A DNA stretch of 46,929 bases from Deltaproteobacteria bacterium. Its GTDB lineage: Bacteria > Desulfobacterota > Binatia > UBA12015. A model generated the notes under the pieces. It was not told where the DNA came from. It made no database searches and worked only from the letters and a program-made list of their open reading frames with translations. Positions 15,216-27,311 of the stretch are shown in pieces. The position numbers and the translations under genes were made by a program. The DNA lies in the NCBI GenBank assembly GCA_016874795.1, contig VGTG01000029.1, forward strand, positions 1 through 46,929, given 5' to 3'. Every line of letters starts with the position of its first letter. The stretch's first letter is position 1.

Positions 15216-15283
15216 TCAGCTCGAGCTCGTTGCGGCCGCCCGATCATTGCCCGGATGTCGCGGCCCTGGACACGCGGCGTCTC

Positions 15284-15302
15284 ATAGCTATAAGATAGCT
15301 AT
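15284..15302 (+). promoter_or_regulatory. Paired palindromes at the brnT start (likely autoregulatory operator)
   Basis: Two copies of the perfect 8-bp palindrome ATAGCTAT lie at 15284-15291 and 15295-15302. They are spaced 11 bp centre to centre, which is one helical turn, in an otherwise very GC-rich region. The second overlaps the brnT start codon. This is the geometry expected for cooperative binding of two ribbon-helix-helix antitoxin dimers. Assignment to BrnA is inference from position. Confidence 0.6.
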
Positions 15303-15663
15303 GCGATTGGCAGCCGACCCGGAGGCCGCTGAATGGCTCGAGGAGGTTCCGGGAGGCTCGCGTGGTTTCGATTGGGATGAAGGGAATCGAGGCAAGCTCA
15401 TCAAGCATCGGCTCGAGCCGGAGGAAGTCGAGTCGATCTTCCGATCCCCGTTCGTGTTCGCGGGGCGAATCGTCGAGCCGGAGCACGAGGAGCAACGCTG
15501 GTTGGTGCTCGGACGAGTGGGCGATCGGCGCCTCGCCTTGATCTTCACCCGGCGAGGCAAGCGCTTGCGGCCGATCAGCTGTCGCTCGATGAGACGGAAC
15601 GAGAAGCAAGCATATGAAGACGCGATCGAAGAAGAAGGCAAAAGCGAGCCGCACGATTCGTAG
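15301..15663 (+). CDS. brnT: BrnT-family toxin (DUF497)
   Basis: A 120-residue BrnT-like ribonuclease toxin. The DUF497 core is visible as GFDWDEGNRGKLIKHRLEPEEVE, in parts: DWDEGN then a helix with KHRL. The variable strands FVFAGRIVEPEHEEQRW and the conserved tail RPISCRSMRRNEKQAYED follow, where the family normally has RxISAR..xxxEr..Y. It carries about 20 extra N-terminal residues compared with the second copy at 33761-34027. The ATG at 15301 lies within the operator; an upstream in-frame start (15247) would read through it. The 3' end overlaps the brnA start by 50 bp. The toxin is expected to cleave cellular RNA unless bound by BrnA. Confidence 0.82.
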   Translation: MRLAADPEAAEWLEEVPGGSRGFDWDEGNRGKLIKHRLEPEEVESIFRSPFVFAGRIVEPEHEEQRWLVLGRVGDRRLALIFTRRGKRLRPISCRSMRRNEKQAYEDAIEEEGKSEPHDS

Positions 15664-15877
15664 GGACTCTCAGGTCGCCGAATTCGAGACGCGCGATCTG
15701 GGAACGGACATCAGGGCTGCACGCACTGCCCGAGTCCTCCGACCCCGAGCGAGGCCGACGTCGATCCTGCTGGACGACGACCTCGTCGACCAACTCCGCG
15801 CAAAGGCGGCCAAGCGCGGCCTCGGCTACCAGACGATGCTCAAGATGATCGTGCGGGAGCATCTGGACGAGTACTGA
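15614..15877 (+). CDS. brnA: BrnA-like antitoxin (RHH/CopG type)
   Basis: An 87-residue protein with a basic, disordered start (MKTRSKKKAKASRTIRR) and a C-terminal ribbon-helix-helix module: RPTSILLDDDLVDQLRAKAAKRG followed by GYQTMLKMIVREHLDEY, in two halves. The start ATG at 15614 lies inside brnT, so the two are one coupled operon with toxin first, the usual brnTA order. It should neutralise BrnT and repress the operon through the twin palindromes at the promoter. The sequence shows the fold clearly, and the BrnA assignment rests on the partner gene. Confidence 0.8.
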   Translation: MKTRSKKKAKASRTIRRDSQVAEFETRDLGTDIRAARTARVLRPRARPTSILLDDDLVDQLRAKAAKRGLGYQTMLKMIVREHLDEY

Positions 15878-21185: not shown

Positions 21186-21482
21186 TCAGCCGCCGGCCAT
21201 CGCGCCGACGATCAGGAACGGCTCCGTCCCCTTCGCGATCGCCTCGGGGAGCGGCGTGTCCAGCGACTCGTGCGAGAGATCCTGCTCGCACGCGAAGAAG
21301 CGGACGAACGGACGCCGCTTCTGCGTCGCGTGATCGCGGATCGTGCCGAGGAGCGCAGGGAAGCGCGCCTCGAGGGCGTCGACGACGGCGCGCGTCGTGA
21401 CGACACCCGAAACCTCGACCTCCACCTCGCCGTCGACGCGGGCAAGCTTCCTGAGGTGCGCGGGGAGGACGACGCGGATCAT
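21186..21482 (-). CDS. MoaD/ThiS-family small beta-grasp protein with C-terminal Gly-Gly
   Basis: A 98-residue ubiquitin-like protein. It has [37 protein letters not shown] and an exposed tail ending IVGAMAGG, given as separate short motifs. In the family this diglycine is adenylated by an E1-like enzyme and carries sulfur as a thiocarboxylate. The ATG overlaps the stop of the upstream beta-propeller gene (ATGA), so the two are translationally coupled and probably work together. No MoeB/ThiF, MoaE or JAMM gene is nearby, so the activating enzyme must be elsewhere. Lengthwise it is slightly longer than MoaD. The pairing with a BNR propeller is the main clue to function. Confidence 0.85.
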
Positions 21483-22594
21483 GGCAGCGTCTGCACCTCG
21501 ACGGACAGCACGGCGGGAAGGTCGCGGACGATCGGGTTCCAGGAGTCGCCGGCATCCGCGGAGGCGTACACCTGCCCGCCGGTCGTGCCGAAGTAGATGC
21601 CGCACGAGTCGAGCGAGTCGACCGCCATCGCGTCGCGCAGCACGTTCACGTAGCAGTCGCGCTGCGGCAGTCCCTTCGTGAGCGGCTCCCACTCGTTCCC
21701 GCCGGAGCGGCTCCGGTAGACACGGAGCTTCCCGTCGGGCGGGTAGTGCTCCGAGTCGCTCTTGATCGGTACGACGTAGACGGTGCTCGGCTCGTGCGCG
21801 TGCACGTCGATCGGGAAGCCGAAGTCGCTCGGCAGGTTCCCGCTCACGTCCTCCCGGGAGTCGCCCGCGTTCTCGCTCCGCATCACGTCCCAGTGCTTCT
21901 GCATGTAGAGGACGTTCGGCCGCGACGGGTGCATCGCGATCCGGTGCACGCAGTGGCCGACCTCGGCGTTCGGATCGGGGATGCCTTCGGACTTGAGCCC
22001 CCGGTTGATCGGCTTCCACGACTTGCCGCCGTCGTCGGTGCGGAACGCGCCCGCGGCGGAGATCGCGATGAACATGCGCTCCGGGTTCGAGGGGTCGAGG
22101 AGGATCGTGTGCAGGCACATTCCGCCCGCGCCCGGCTGCCAGAACGGTCCGGAGCCGTGCTCGCGGAGCCCCGGCAGCTCGCTCCAGCTCTGCCCGCCGT
22201 CGGTCGAGCGGAAGATCGCGGCGTCCTCGACGCCGGCGTAGACCGTGTCGCGATCCGTGAGCGACGGCTCGAGGTGCCAGACGCGCGCGAACTCCCAGGG
22301 ATGCGGCGTGCCGTCGTACCACTGGTGCGTACCGGGGACGCCCGCGTAGGTGAACTGGTTGCCGACCGTCTCCCAGGTCTTGCCGCCGTCGTCGGACCGG
22401 TGCACGACCTGCCCGAACCAGCTGGTGCACTGCGAAGCGTAGAGGCGGTCCGGATCCACGGGGGATCCCTTGAGGTGGTAGATCTCCCAGCCGCCGAAGT
22501 GGGGACCGCTCACGTCCCACTTGTCGCGCTTCCCGTCCGCGGTCAGGACGAACGCACCCTTTCGCGTGCCGACGAGGACTCGTACTCCGCTCAT
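21479..22594 (-). CDS. BNR/WD40-like beta-propeller protein coupled to MoaD
   Basis: A 371-residue cytoplasmic propeller of the exo-sialidase/VPS10 type. BNR (Asp-box-like) repeats recur as [52 protein letters not shown] and [13 protein letters not shown], preceded by [12 protein letters not shown] at the N-terminus. No signal peptide is present. Conserved Cys and His occur at [14 protein letters not shown] and HCVHRI. The ATG at 22594 has a strong AAAGGAGGAGG site. It overlaps the MoaD-like gene by 4 bp. I recall such pairs from many genomes without a known role. The propeller may be the target or scaffold of the Gly-Gly protein, which is inference. Confidence 0.85.
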
Positions 22595-22632
22595 GCCTCC
22601 TCCTTTTCGTGAGGTAAGTCGAACGGCACCGT

Positions 22633-22649
22633 GCGGGTTCGACACCCGC
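22633..22649 (+). other. tRNA T-arm-like fragment
   Basis: GCGGG-TTCGACA-CCCGC forms a perfect 5-bp stem with a 7-base loop carrying the TTCGA core of a tRNA T-arm, followed by CGGAGGAA. The preceding 60 bases cannot form D- and anticodon arms (most belong to the propeller start). At best it is a 3' tRNA end of the kind left as an attachment-site copy by an integrative element. Chance is possible. Confidence 0.35.
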
Positions 22650-22661
22650 CGGAGGAAATCT

Positions 22662-23528
22662 CTACTCGGCGGCGGGCGCGACGCAGCGGTTGACCAGGGT
22701 GCCGAGGTGCTCGATCTCGCTCGTGATCTCGTCGCCGACCGCAAGGTAGCGGCGGGGATTCCGGACGGATCCGACCCCCGCGGGCGTCCCCGTGAAGATC
22801 AGGTCGCCGGGGAGGAGGGTGCAGTGCCGGGAGAGGTACGCGATCGTCTCGGGGACCGAGAAGACCATCAGGCTCGTCCGCGCGCTCTGCATGCGCTCGC
22901 CGGAGACGTCACAGGTGAGTGCGAGGTCGTTCGGATCCGGTATCGCGTCGAGCGAGATCACCGCCGGTCCGATCGGTCCGAAGTTCGCGAGCGACTTCCC
23001 CAGTGAGAACTGCGCGGGCGTGTCGGAGAACTGCAGGCGCCGGTCGGAGACGTCCTGCCCGACGCAGTAGCCGGCGACGTGCTCGAGCGCCTTCGCCTCG
23101 GGGATGTTCCGTCCGCCGCGACCGATGACGGCGACGAGCTCGACCTCCCAGTCGACGCGGCTCGAGCCGATCGGGACCGCCGCGCGCGGTCCGGCGAGGC
23201 AGCTCGGGAACTTCGTGAAGATCATCGGCGACTTCGGCAGCTCGAGCCCCGCCTCGGCGGCGTGATCGCGGTAGTTCAAGCCGAGCGCGAAGACCTGCGC
23301 GGGGAAGGGGACGGGCGGCCCGAGCGCGGCTTCGTCGAGCGTGGTGACGAGCCCTTCGCTCGCGCCCGCAAGCGAGGCCGCGGCCCAGTCGCGCACGACG
23401 TCCCAGGCGCGGATTGCGGCCATCGGATCGGAGGGCAGCGCTCCGCGCGAGGCTTTCTCGAGGTCGACGGCTCCGTCGCCGCGCCGCAGCGCCGCGCGGC
23501 CGTGCAGGTTCACGAGTGCGGTTTTCAT
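22662..23528 (-). CDS. Fumarylacetoacetate hydrolase (FAH) family protein
   Basis: A 288-residue metal-dependent hydrolase, decarboxylase or isomerase acting on beta-diketo or oxo acids from ring degradation. The family core is [30 protein letters not shown], the ligand pair in [28 protein letters not shown], and the end [16 protein letters not shown]. An N-terminal 70-residue lid domain precedes it. ATG 23528 ([10 protein letters not shown]) was preferred to the longer frame, whose added 38 residues are Arg/Ser-rich. It stands alone, 67 bp from the propeller start. It may act downstream of the BVMO in ring cleavage, which is inference. The 210-bp gap beyond its start (23529-23738) shows no gene. 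Confidence 0.9.
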
Positions 23529-23738
23529 CGACCGGACGATACTGTGCGTCCGAGATCCGCGCGAGCCGCCATGTCGAGGGCAACAGAGATCTCCTCGGAC
23601 GAATCGCCGTTTCTGCCGAGACGAGCGCTCTCGATGCTGCAAGGAGGGCGTCGTAGATCGGGGATCTGCCGCGCACGATGAGCGTCGCGCGGCAGCTCGA
23701 GATCGCCCGCGCCGAGCCTCGCTGCCGGGGCGCCCCGG

Positions 23739-24830
23739 TCAGCGCGCGCGAGCGCGACGGGACGAGGAGGGTGCCCCGGCGGCCGACTCCACCCCGCCGT
23801 CGAGCAGCGCCAGCAGCCGCCGCGCCGCGTCCGTCGGCGTCAGCTCCGCGCTCGAGACCGACGCCTCGAGCTTGGGCAGGAGCTCGCGCACGTCCGCGCG
23901 CGCGAGGAACTTCCTCCGGAGCCCGTCCTCGAGCGTGCTCCAGAACCACGCGTGACGCTGCTCGCGGCGGAGCTCGTCGAGAGCGCCCGCGGCCTCGAGC
24001 TTCTCGTGGTGGTCATGGATGATCGACCACACCTCGTCCATGCCGCGCTGCTCGAGCGCGCTCACCGTGACGACCGGCGGATCCCAGTGCGGCGTCCGGT
24101 GGCGGAAGAGCCGCAGCGCGTTTCGATACTCGGCCGCGGCGCGCATCGCGCGTTTCGCGTTGTCGCCGTCCGCCTTGTTGATCGCGAGCGCGTCGGCGAG
24201 CTCCATGATGCCCTTCTTGATCCCCTGCAGCTCGTCGCCCGCGTTCGGCAGCATGAGGACCAGGAAGAAGTCGACCATCGAGGCGACCGCGACCTCGGAC
24301 TGCCCGACGCCGACCGTCTCGACGAGGACGACGTCGTAGCCCGCCGCCTCGCAGACGAGCATCGCCTCGCGCGTACGCCGTGTGACGCCGCCGAGCGAGC
24401 CGGCCGAAGGGCTCGGTCGAATGAACGCGTTCGGTGAAGCCGAGAGGTTCGACATGCGCGTCTTGTCGCCGAGGATGCTTCCGCCCGAGCGCGCGCTCGA
24501 TGGATCGACCGCGAGCACCGCGACGCGCTTTCCCTGCCCGATCAGGTAGAGCCCGAACGCCTCGATGAACGTGCTCTTGCCGACGCCGGGCACGCCCGTG
24601 ATGCCGACGCGCGCGGAGCCGCCCGTCGACGGCAAGAGCGTCTCGAGCAGACGCTGCGCTTCCTGCTGATGATCGGCGCGCGTGCTCTCGACGAGCGTGA
24701 TCGCCTTCGCGAGCGAGCGACGATCGCCCGCGCGCACGCGCTCGGCAAGCGCTTCCACCGCGTTCGTCGAGGTCGCCGAGCCGGGGCTACTCGTGGGCGG
24801 CACCGGGCTTTCCGCCGTTCGCGCTTCCAC
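23739..24830 (-). CDS. meaB: Methylmalonyl-CoA mutase-associated GTPase MeaB (ArgK/MeaB family)
   Basis: A 363-residue G3E-type GTPase that gates cobalamin loading and protects methylmalonyl-CoA mutase. It has Walker [10 protein letters not shown] (about 78-86), [16 protein letters not shown], the switch region [14 protein letters not shown], and the base-specificity motif NKADGDN. GTG 24830 lies inside the 3' end of the mutase gene (44-bp overlap), so the two are coupled. The C-terminal 25 residues are low-complexity Ala/Ser/Arg. The mutase overlap and motif set make the assignment firm. Confidence 0.95.
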
Positions 24831-26970
24831 GGTGCGCGATCAGGTCGAGCACGCGCCGCGCCGCGACGGGGATGCGCGTCCCCGGTCCGAAGATCGCCTT
24901 GACGCCGGACTTCTCGAGGAACGGATAGTCCTTCGGCGGGATGATGCCGCCGACCGCGACGACGACGTCGCCCGCGCCGAGCGCGTCGAGCTGCTTCACG
25001 ATCTCCGGCACGAGCGTCTTGTGCCCGCCGGACTGCGTCGAGACGCCGACCACGTGAACGTCGTTCTCGACGGCCTGCCGTGCGATCTCCTCGGGCGTCT
25101 GGAAGAGCGTCCCGACGTCGACGTCGAAGCCGAGGTCGGCGAACGCCGTCGCGATCACCTTCGCGCCGCGGTCATGCCCGTCCTGCCCGACCTTCGCGAC
25201 GAGCATGCGCGGGCGGCGTCCCTGCGCGGAGAGGAAGCTCTCGATCTCCTTCTGCATCTCGCGCCAGTCGTCGTCCTCGCTGAACGCGGAGCCGTAGACG
25301 CCGGAGATCGACTTGATCTCCGCCTGGTAGCGCCCCCAGACCTTCTCGAGCGCGGCCGAGATCTCGCCGACCGTCGCGCGCGCGCGCGCCGCCTCGACGC
25401 CGAGCTCGAGGAGGTTGCCCTGGCCGGTCTGCGCGCAGGTCTGCAGCGCTTCGAGCGTCGCGGCGACCTTCGCTGCGTCGCGCGTCGCGCGGATCTTCTC
25501 GAGCCGCGTGACCTGCGCCGCCCGCACCGCCGTGTTGTCGATCTCGCGGAGGTCGAGCTCCGGCTCGTTCGGGCGCTGGAAACGGTTGACGCCGACGATC
25601 ACGTCCTCGCCGCGGTCGACACGCGCTTGACGCTGCGCGGACGTCTCCTCGATGCGGAGCTTCGGCATGCCCGCCTCGATGGCGCGGACCATGCCGCCCA
25701 TCTCCTCGACCTCCTCGATGATGCCGAGGGCCTTCGTGGCGAGAGCGTGCGTCAAGGACTCCATGAAGTACGAGCCGCCCCACGGGTCGACGACCTTCGG
25801 GATCCCCGTCTCGAGCTGCAGCACGAGCTGCGTGTTGCGCGCGACGCGCGCGGACTCGTCGGTCGGGAGCGCGAGCGCCTCGTCGAACGAGTTCGTGTGG
25901 AGGCTCTGCGTCCCGCCCATCACCGCCGCCATCGCCTCGACGGTCGTGCGGATGATGTTGTTGTACGGGTCCTGCTCCGTCAGGCTCGCACCCGACGTCT
26001 GGCAGTGCGTGCGGAGCATCAGCGACTCGGCCTTCTTCGGCGCGAAGTGCCTCTTCATCAGCGTCGCCCAGAGGAGCCGCGCGGCGCGGAGCTTCGCCAC
26101 CTCCATGTAGAAGTTCATCCCGATCGCGAAGAAGAACGAGAGGCGTCCCGCGAACGCGTCGATGTCGAGGCCCTTCGAGAGTGCCGCGCGCACGTAGTCG
26201 AGGCCGTCGGCGATCGTGAAAGCGAGCTCGAGATCGTTCGTCGCTCCCGCCTCCTGCATGTGGTAGCCGGAGATCGAGATCGAGTTGAACTTCGGCATCT
26301 CCTTCGAGGTGTACTCGATGATGTCCGCGACGATCCGCATCGAAGGCGCAGGCGGATAGATGTAGGTGTTGCGGACCATGAATTCTTTGAGGATGTCGTT
26401 CTGGATCGTGCCGGTGAGCTGAGCGCGCGGCACGCCTTGCTCCTCGCCGGCGACGATGAAGCTCGCGAGCACCGGGAGAACGGCGCCGTTCATCGTCATC
26501 GAGACGGACATCTTTTCCAGCGGCACGCCTTCGAAGAGGATGTTCATGTCCTCGACGGAGTCGATCGCGACGCCCGCCTTGCCGACGTCGCCGACGACGC
26601 GCGGGTGATCGCTGTCGTACCCGCGGTGCGTCGCGAGGTCGAAGGCGACCGAGAGGCCCATCTGCCCGGCGGCGAGGTTCGCGCGGTAGAACGCGTTCGA
26701 CTCCTCGGCGGTGGAGAACCCGGCGTACTGCCGGATCGTCCACGGGCGCTCGGTGTACATCGTCGCGCGCGGGCCGCGTACGAACGGGAATCCGCCGGGG
26801 ATCCCGTCGGCGAAGTCGATGCCCTCGACGTCGGCCCGGGTGTAGAGCGGCTTCACGTCGATGCCTTCGGGCGTGTGCCAGACGAGTTGTTCGGGATCGG
26901 CGCCCTTGCGCTCGCGCTTGGCGAGCTCGCGCCAGCGCTCGACGTCTGCCTTCTCGGGTTGTGTGGCCAT
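24787..26970 (-). CDS. mcm: Methylmalonyl-CoA mutase (large/single-subunit type)
   Basis: A 727-residue adenosylcobalamin-dependent mutase interconverting succinyl-CoA and (R)-methylmalonyl-CoA. The TIM-barrel half carries [34 protein letters not shown], the substrate-site [12 protein letters not shown] with the catalytic His, and [15 protein letters not shown]. The C-terminal B12 domain has the cobalt-ligand motif [14 protein letters not shown] and [12 protein letters not shown]. Length matches the full mutase rather than ethylmalonyl-CoA mutase. ATG 26970 begins at [13 protein letters not shown]; the upstream extension is Arg-rich shadow. It overlaps meaB. The pathway is propionyl-CoA assimilation, from odd-chain, branched or sterol side chains. 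No epimerase or carboxylase is in view. Confidence 0.96.
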
Positions 26971-27125
26971 GGGCAGGTAGGATCGGCTTCCGGCGGGGCA
27001 GGCGCAAATCGCTGCTCCCGCCTGCGGCGGAGCCATGCTTGACCGCGTTCGCGCTGCTCGGATAGGCAGGCTTAGGAGACCCAAGTGACTCGACCCACCG
27101 CTGGGCCCACCGTCTTGACGCTCTT

Positions 27126-27311
27126 TTGCGTGAGCCTGACCTTCGGGGCGACCTCCAGGTCGGGCAGTCCGAAGCACCGGTCCGGGTCGAGCTCACGATC
27201 GGCGAGACGTGGCGCTACTGCGCCGAGTTCGGCGGCTTCGTCGTGCACGACGGCTCCGATGGGAAGTCGTTCCTGGCGAAGCTCTCCCCAACGCCTGCCG
27301 GCTGCCCCTGA
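27126..27311 (+). pseudogene. C-terminal fragment of an exported-type protein
   Basis: An open frame without a proper start (TTG only). It reads [20 protein letters not shown], then VVHDGSDGKSFLAKLSPTPAGCP to the stop, in two pieces. The style (beta strands with Cys, FLAK...PxPAxCP end) resembles the C-terminal sandwich of exported proteins such as the one at 9581-12553. The N-terminal part is absent, so it looks like a truncated gene. Nothing else is visible in 26971-27341. The identity is uncertain. Confidence 0.35.

Follow-up and report, generated by a model that had tools for sequence, protein, structure and literature searches.

CysO-CysM, MoaD-MoaE, ThiS-ThiG and TtuB-TtuA are all systems in which a sulfur carrier works with a dedicated acceptor enzyme. 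Proteins that join a ThiF domain to a rhodanese domain, the MoeZ/Uba4 architecture, are known for making thiocarboxylates. The window analyzed here, a stretch of DNA of 46,929 nucleotides, contains a gene pair that resembles these systems: a small beta-grasp protein ending in Gly-Gly is encoded beside a single partner, and an E1-type enzyme is present in the genome. The difference lies in the partner, which is a BNR propeller and not a PLP enzyme, MoaE, ThiG or a tRNA thiolase. We know of no described system in which a BNR propeller is the partner in a sulfur relay or of a ubiquitin-like protein. The earlier note on this DNA had likewise been aware of no described role for the pair, and no published account was found in a search of open-licence papers. 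A term search of PMC1779556, PMC1949818 and PMC2948915 found neither BNR nor sialidase, with 'propeller' appearing once as an abbreviation in a legend, and passages of PMC3495685 are unrelated to the pair. The explanation that we favor, with confidence slightly short of even, is that the unit is a dedicated sulfur-carrier system with the propeller as its partner, activated by an E1 enzyme and regulated by stress in many hosts.

The organization of the pair in the window (Table 1) is as previously described. The MoaD-like ORF ends exactly in Gly-Gly (C-terminal sequence VGAMAGG), and it has an ATGA in common with the 371-residue propeller at 21482-21479. Judging by this overlap, the two genes are probably translationally coupled. 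The statement that no E1, MoaE or protease gene is adjacent also holds in the window, where a scan of the neighbors found an FMO-like flavoprotein gene after the pair and FAA hydrolase and MeaB genes before it. The FAA hydrolase and MeaB genes (both recognized by Pfam) and an apparent methylmalonyl-CoA mutase gene stand one after another directly ahead of the pair, at 22662-27177 on the minus strand.

Table 1. Features of the gene pair. Gene coordinates include the stop codon; in the direction of transcription the propeller gene runs from 22594 to 21479 and the MoaD-like gene from 21482 to 21186.
Feature	Position	Strand	Basis or remark
BNR/Asp-box beta-propeller, 371 aa	21479..22594	-	Pfam BNR and Sortilin-Vps10, 3b7f fold, neighbor conservation
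MoaD/SAMP1/CysO-like ubiquitin-fold protein, 98 aa, Gly-Gly end, presumed sulfur carrier	21186..21482	-	AlphaFold2 model, fold matches
ATGA stop/start overlap of the propeller and MoaD-like genes	21479..21482	-	Sequence; same 4-nt overlap in 56/79 homologous pairs
AAAAGGAGGAGGC stretch, likely ribosome-binding site of the propeller gene	22595..22607	-	Sequence; inference
ECF42-type promoter-like site TGTCGA-N17-CGAC	22618..22644	-	Ends 23 nt ahead of the propeller ATG

The AlphaFold2 model of the MoaD-like protein (mean pLDDT 90.4) has a ubiquitin-like beta-grasp fold. Its nearest folds are SAMP1 (3po0) and CysO (4n6e and 3dwg), with E values of 4e-5 to 2e-4. The protein is thus like SAMP1 of Haloferax volcanii, and also like Urm1, in its fold and in the occasional E1-rhodanese gene next door (described below), but it differs from them in its propeller partner and in its score against the NCBIfam SAMP1 profile (16.4 bits versus a cut-off of 60). 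A distant MoaD-like relative (L091) scores 40.9 bits against that profile, and the window's protein scores 17 bits (E 0.009) against Pfam ThiS, whose cut-off is 22.5. The least certain part of the model is residues 91-98, with a mean pLDDT of 66. Such low certainty in the last eight residues fits a free tail, as expected.

A scan of a genome collection gave 198 confirmed matches to the MoaD-like protein, and the best 80 of them, which are a ranked set and no census, were used for comparison. These 80 homologues are 67-80% identical to the 98-aa protein. Gly97-Gly98 is present in 81 of 81 rows (the 80 homologues and the window). Of the 80 homologues, 75 end exactly there and five have further residues behind it. 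Between 1 and 14 residues follow the Gly-Gly in carriers L013, L034, L056, L059 and L071, and also in L234, L236 and L238. Such carriers would need trimming ahead of activation.

A propeller gene adjoins the MoaD gene in 79 of these best 80 loci, and the propellers are 71-89% identical to that of the window in the best segment. The sole exception, L081, starts at a contig edge. The two genes overlap by 4 nt in 56 of the 79 pairs and by 1 nt in five, and they are separated by a gap of 8-583 nt in 18. The homologues come from Nitrospira, acidobacteria, actinobacteria, Rokubacteria, Gemmatimonadales, Verrucomicrobia, Chloroflexi and others, mostly as MAGs. A natural fusion of the two proteins was found in none of 161 loci. 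Among 98 genomes comprising the window's own and its relatives, the window-type propeller (split or cut in some) and the window-type MoaD occur in the same 26. The pair is present in one of four genomes of the window's genus, and a propeller match at E 1e-30 or better is present in five of 395 genomes sampled from the phylum, all in the window's class. The pair is therefore patchy in distribution, and it has been inherited or moved together. The match between the distances among the MoaD-like proteins and those among the propellers is no more than modest, with a Mantel r of 0.32 compared with 0.22 for the best of 1000 permutations. Distant-type propellers (195-322 bits) are present in the same 98 genomes too; there are at least 10, and for two of these the genome has the window type as well. 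A Gly-Gly partner adjoins nine of 10 distant-type propellers from the relatives, ending exactly in Gly-Gly in six and with extra residues in three; no partner was found alongside the remaining one, L241.

The pair is kept even where the gene order is reversed. In plasmid records of Pseudomonas aeruginosa, Burkholderia, Paraburkholderia, Cupriavidus and Mitsuaria, a MoaD gene is followed by the propeller gene; in records that carry annotation, the names are 'MoaD/ThiS family protein' and then 'exo-alpha-sialidase' or 'hypothetical protein'. The propeller gene lies 24-148 nt after the proteobacterial MoaD gene in all 10 plasmid records with a near-full-length match, and the five proteobacterial-type partners whose tail was read all end in Gly-Gly. 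The window's own MoaD, used as a query against the plasmids, gave no match. The earlier proposal that the two proteins form a functional unit is strongly supported by the pairing over many phyla, by the co-occurrence in the same 26 relatives and by the reversed order in proteobacteria. We conclude that the pair is real and that selection on it is strong.

The propeller exceeds the Pfam cut-offs for BNR (37.8 versus 27 bits) and Sortilin-Vps10 (50.3 versus 33 bits). Its AlphaFold2 model (pLDDT 91.3) has seven blades, counted by hand from the predicted strands. The nearest solved structure is 3b7f (Reut_B4987 of Ralstonia eutropha JMP134), a member of the same propeller family with a TM score of 0.89 and 36% identity. 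The relatives of the propeller are annotated as exo-alpha-sialidase or sialidase family protein, and these names would suit an ordinary sialidase or glycosyl hydrolase with an incidental MoaD-like neighbor. We regard this as exceedingly unlikely, given that the pairing spans many phyla and both gene orders. The propeller also falls below the cut-off of curated glycosyl hydrolase models, scoring 63.5 bits against the 175 required by NCBIfam F510_1955, which is far below, and 15.5 against 27 for Pfam BNR_3. The structure 3b7f is titled 'putative glycosyl hydrolase with BNR repeats', a name that rests on fold only, and the weaker fold matches that come after it are GH74, DAIP, YCF48 and Vps10 propellers.

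The conserved core of the propeller comprises W106, W152, H162, D188, W193, H217, Q232, H234, R239, F258-G259-F260 and R320. The conservation of Cys and His seen in the earlier note proved correct for histidine, with H162, H217, H234 and mostly H265 kept family-wide, and not for cysteine, none of which is kept family-wide; the invariance of C215 and C314 is confined to the propeller subfamily of the window. Several core residues, placed by predicted strands, map to successive innermost strands, which in our reading suggests a central pocket.

The actinobacteria show how far the tail can be separated from the rest of the unit. In the order of Sphaerisporangium, a propeller at E 1e-30 or better is present in 186 of 249 genomes. 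The window-type loci sampled there have a Gly-Gly partner in 20 of 20 cases. Among 40 hand-picked distant-type loci of the same order, 20 have a Gly-Gly partner, 13 have a tail-less partner, six have no partner that could be found and one is cut by a contig end. The tail-less partners end in LPALA, MPSLA, LPALG or similar. The 10 loci of the plasmid set comprise six with a Gly-Gly partner, one with a tail-less partner (L086) and three with no partner found. The tail-less loci are L086, L109, L112, L113, L114, L116-L122, L124 and L125, and propellers with no partner found alongside are L085, L087, L088, L241 and the six distant-type actinobacterial loci. Since tail-less partners are still encoded near the propeller, they are a natural loss-of-tail experiment. 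The earlier note had tied its reading to a pair conserved beyond this genome and to a constant terminal Gly-Gly. The outcome on these points is mixed: the pair is conserved, but some propellers stand without a partner, and the Gly-Gly is invariant in the window's subfamily, usual in the distant ones and lost in one actinobacterial group.

The propeller core is unaffected by this loss. Conservation of the core residues is at least 90% in all groups that have Gly-Gly, and it is 93-100% in those whose partner is tail-less or missing. The propeller core is independent of the Gly-Gly tail, and the propeller therefore seems to have a function in its own right. The His/Arg set is likewise unchanged in these groups, so the propeller is not there only for the tail. 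We also sought the site of the tail through residues that change when Gly-Gly is lost. The changing positions are W26, Y119, G133, D326, D329 and Y334, and the conserved His, Arg and Gln residues all stay the same.

Because Gly-Gly is lost in one actinobacterial group where the partner gene is still adjacent, a different reading stays alive, in which the ubiquitin-like protein serves the propeller non-covalently, as a structural or regulatory subunit, the propeller is an enzyme or a sensor, and the Gly-Gly is secondary or used in another pathway. The absence of a partner beside other propellers, with propeller residues unchanged, is also consistent with it. We consider it possible but rather unlikely, as Gly-Gly is retained throughout the window's subfamily, in all of the proteobacterial-type partners read and in nine of nine distant-type partners of the relatives, and an E1-rhodanese gene adjoins some of the pairs. 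A third reading, which we consider improbable, is that of a modifier similar to SAMP or Urm1, conjugated to lysines, with the propeller as its main target or adaptor. That SAMP1 is the nearest fold and that every group conserves the propeller's K12 would agree with this reading; K12 is, however, equally conserved in propellers without a Gly-Gly partner, and no deconjugating protease was recognized among 25 recurrent neighbor clusters (10 exemplars by Pfam and the rest by eye).

A possible source of activation for the favored sulfur carrier is encoded beside a few of the pairs. A tblastn search with one query found a ThiF-type E1 gene directly beside the pair in three of the 80 loci. The E1 gene is located 14 nt after the carrier gene in L009 (Hydrogenedentota) and about 100 nt after it in L065 (Acidobacteriaceae), and it is divergent and about 90 nt upstream of the pair in L064 (Omnitrophota). 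All three proteins contain ThiF and rhodanese domains. In 15 pair-bearing genomes there are 42 ThiF matches, some of them weak, in 79.8 Mb, or about 0.5 per Mb, and by our own arithmetic about 0.1 E1 genes would be expected by chance within 1 kb of 80 pairs, as opposed to the three observed. In another 40 loci, no E1 gene was found. The sulfur-carrier role suggested earlier is thus indirectly supported by the constant Gly-Gly, the SAMP1/CysO fold and these neighbors. The mere presence of an E1 gene proves little because such genes are nearly universal: they occur in 97 of the 98 relatives and in all 15 pair-bearing genomes tried, and the window's genome has three ThiF matches. Co-occurrence with E1 or with MoaE (92 of 98 relatives) was for this reason uninformative as proof of function.

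Four other MoaD/ThiS genes were found in the window's genome. Three of them adjoin an enzyme that they could serve or depend on, namely a CysM-like PLP enzyme with ThiF, MoaE, and a molybdenum-binding subunit. A canonical role of the 98-aa protein in Moco or thiamine synthesis was judged unlikely because another MoaD, accompanied by MoaE, and a distinct ThiS are encoded in the genome. In the same genome, a MoaD-like protein with the C-terminus GGG (L004, C103:318-566) is encoded directly behind the gene of a molybdopterin cofactor-binding (MoCoBD) subunit.

The genomic neighborhood of many of the pairs, a matter not raised in the earlier note, resembles that of ECF42 sigma factors. The survey proposed in the earlier note, of how often the pair co-occurs and with what third gene, gave the near-constant pairing above and no constant third gene in the 80 loci, and in particular none of obvious sulfur chemistry; the best is a YCII gene in 26. 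These 26 loci compare with 0.8 expected, and without Nitrospira the YCII count is 15 of 65 versus 0.7 expected. An ECF42-type sigma gene is present in 17 of the 80 loci, with DUF6596 in 17 of 17. ECF42 proteins are sigma factors with a TPR-rich extension and a YCII gene nearby (PMC8999054; PMC6180224), and a review links ECF42 to oxidative stress and antibiotic sensitivity in Pseudomonas putida (PMC8999054). Two Sinorhizobium ECF42 targets in PMC6180224 show TGTCGG-N17-CGTC (spacing counted here), which the TGTCGA-N17-CGAC of the window's pair resembles. A term search of PMC8999054 and PMC6180224 found no mention of MoaD or sialidase.

The match in the window alone is not significant, because TGTCGRN17CGWC has a single match there (22644-22618) and about two are expected by chance. 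The pattern TGTCGA-N16/17-CGAC was chosen after seeing the window's copy. Among the 67 testable loci, 26 have it at up to 2 kb upstream (three antisense), versus 0.7 expected from Markov sequences, and without Nitrospira the count is 14 of 53. This enrichment over loci is significant. When a spacing of 16-18 is allowed in the 67 loci, there are 27 sense and five antisense sites upstream, but the pattern is frequent in the 2 kb downstream as well, with 10 sense and four antisense sites. Of 25 loci from relatives in the class, at least two of which (L209 and L201) duplicate loci of the first set, 10 have the site (three antisense), nine have YCII and nine have ECF42. In P. aeruginosa, a TGTCGA-type site faces a divergent YciI gene, and a sigma factor with DUF6596 is encoded nearby. 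Two results speak against such control: no DUF6596 ECF42 sigma factor was matched in the window's genome, which is 96.7% complete, and the promoter-like site is present at none of 20 actinobacterial pairs of the window type. We also considered a tRNA remnant as the origin of the TGTCGA stretch, and ARAGORN found none. An HxlR-type regulator gene (exemplar identified by Pfam) lies near the pair in seven of the 80 loci (L011, L013, L014, L053, L068, L071 and L079), and it is another possible control besides ECF42.

The neighborhood raises the alternative that ECF42/YCII stress neighborhoods carry the pair as one of many cargoes and that it has no joint biochemistry. VOC, DoxX, SRPBCC and DUF1579 genes do recur around the pair together with YCII. 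Yet no third gene approaches the constancy of the partner, and actinobacteria keep the pair outside such a setting: YCII or ECF42 is present at one of 15 actinobacterial pairs. We therefore take a mere cargo role to be very unlikely.

The most economical mechanism pairs a sulfur carrier with a propeller dedicated to it. The ubiquitin-like protein would be made with a ready-to-use Gly-Gly tail, which an E1 of the MoeB/MoeZ type, drawing on a rhodanese sulfur donor and usually encoded elsewhere in the genome, may convert to a thiocarboxylate. The propeller, as a dedicated partner, would bind the carrier in a physical complex, and its conserved His/Arg/Trp set could form the pocket. From there, sulfur might pass to, or be released towards, a substrate that is either a small molecule or a protein. 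An ECF42-type sigma factor could, in many hosts, turn on the pair together with YCII and VOC genes by transcription from the promoter-like site, and a role in stress would therefore be indicated. More tentatively, and with somewhat less confidence than in the carrier system as such, we suggest that the BNR propeller takes the thiocarboxylated tail into its central pocket for a sulfur reaction, in an ECF42-controlled stress pathway that extends across many phyla; the propeller would then be a new class of partner in sulfur relay, hidden by the name sialidase. Sortilin binds a peptide C-terminus, and the titles of YCF48 entries describe a bound D1 peptide. These BNR-type relatives, for which we know of no ubiquitin-like partner, are no more than an analogy for a propeller that might take up the C-terminal tail of a carrier.

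If this explanation is true, the names exo-alpha-sialidase and MoaD/ThiS family protein mislead, and the very widespread pair behind them is a system of the sulfur-relay or ubiquitin-like kind; the role of part of the ECF42/YCII neighborhoods would then be explained. The lineages without Gly-Gly or without a partner offer a natural comparison for how carriers become plain subunits. At least two other MoaD-like matches were found in each of the 14 genomes tried that have a solo propeller or a tail-less partner. Six of these other loci, from three genomes, were read by eye; three are beside threonine synthase and three beside CysM, and a tail was seen only in L163 (AVAGG). The MoaD-like gene adjoins the apparent threonine synthase gene in L171, L163 and L162, from three actinobacterial genomes. 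Elsewhere in the window, on the plus strand, are small overlapping ORFs (15247-15663 and 15614-15877) that we take to resemble a BrnT/BrnA-type toxin-antitoxin pair.
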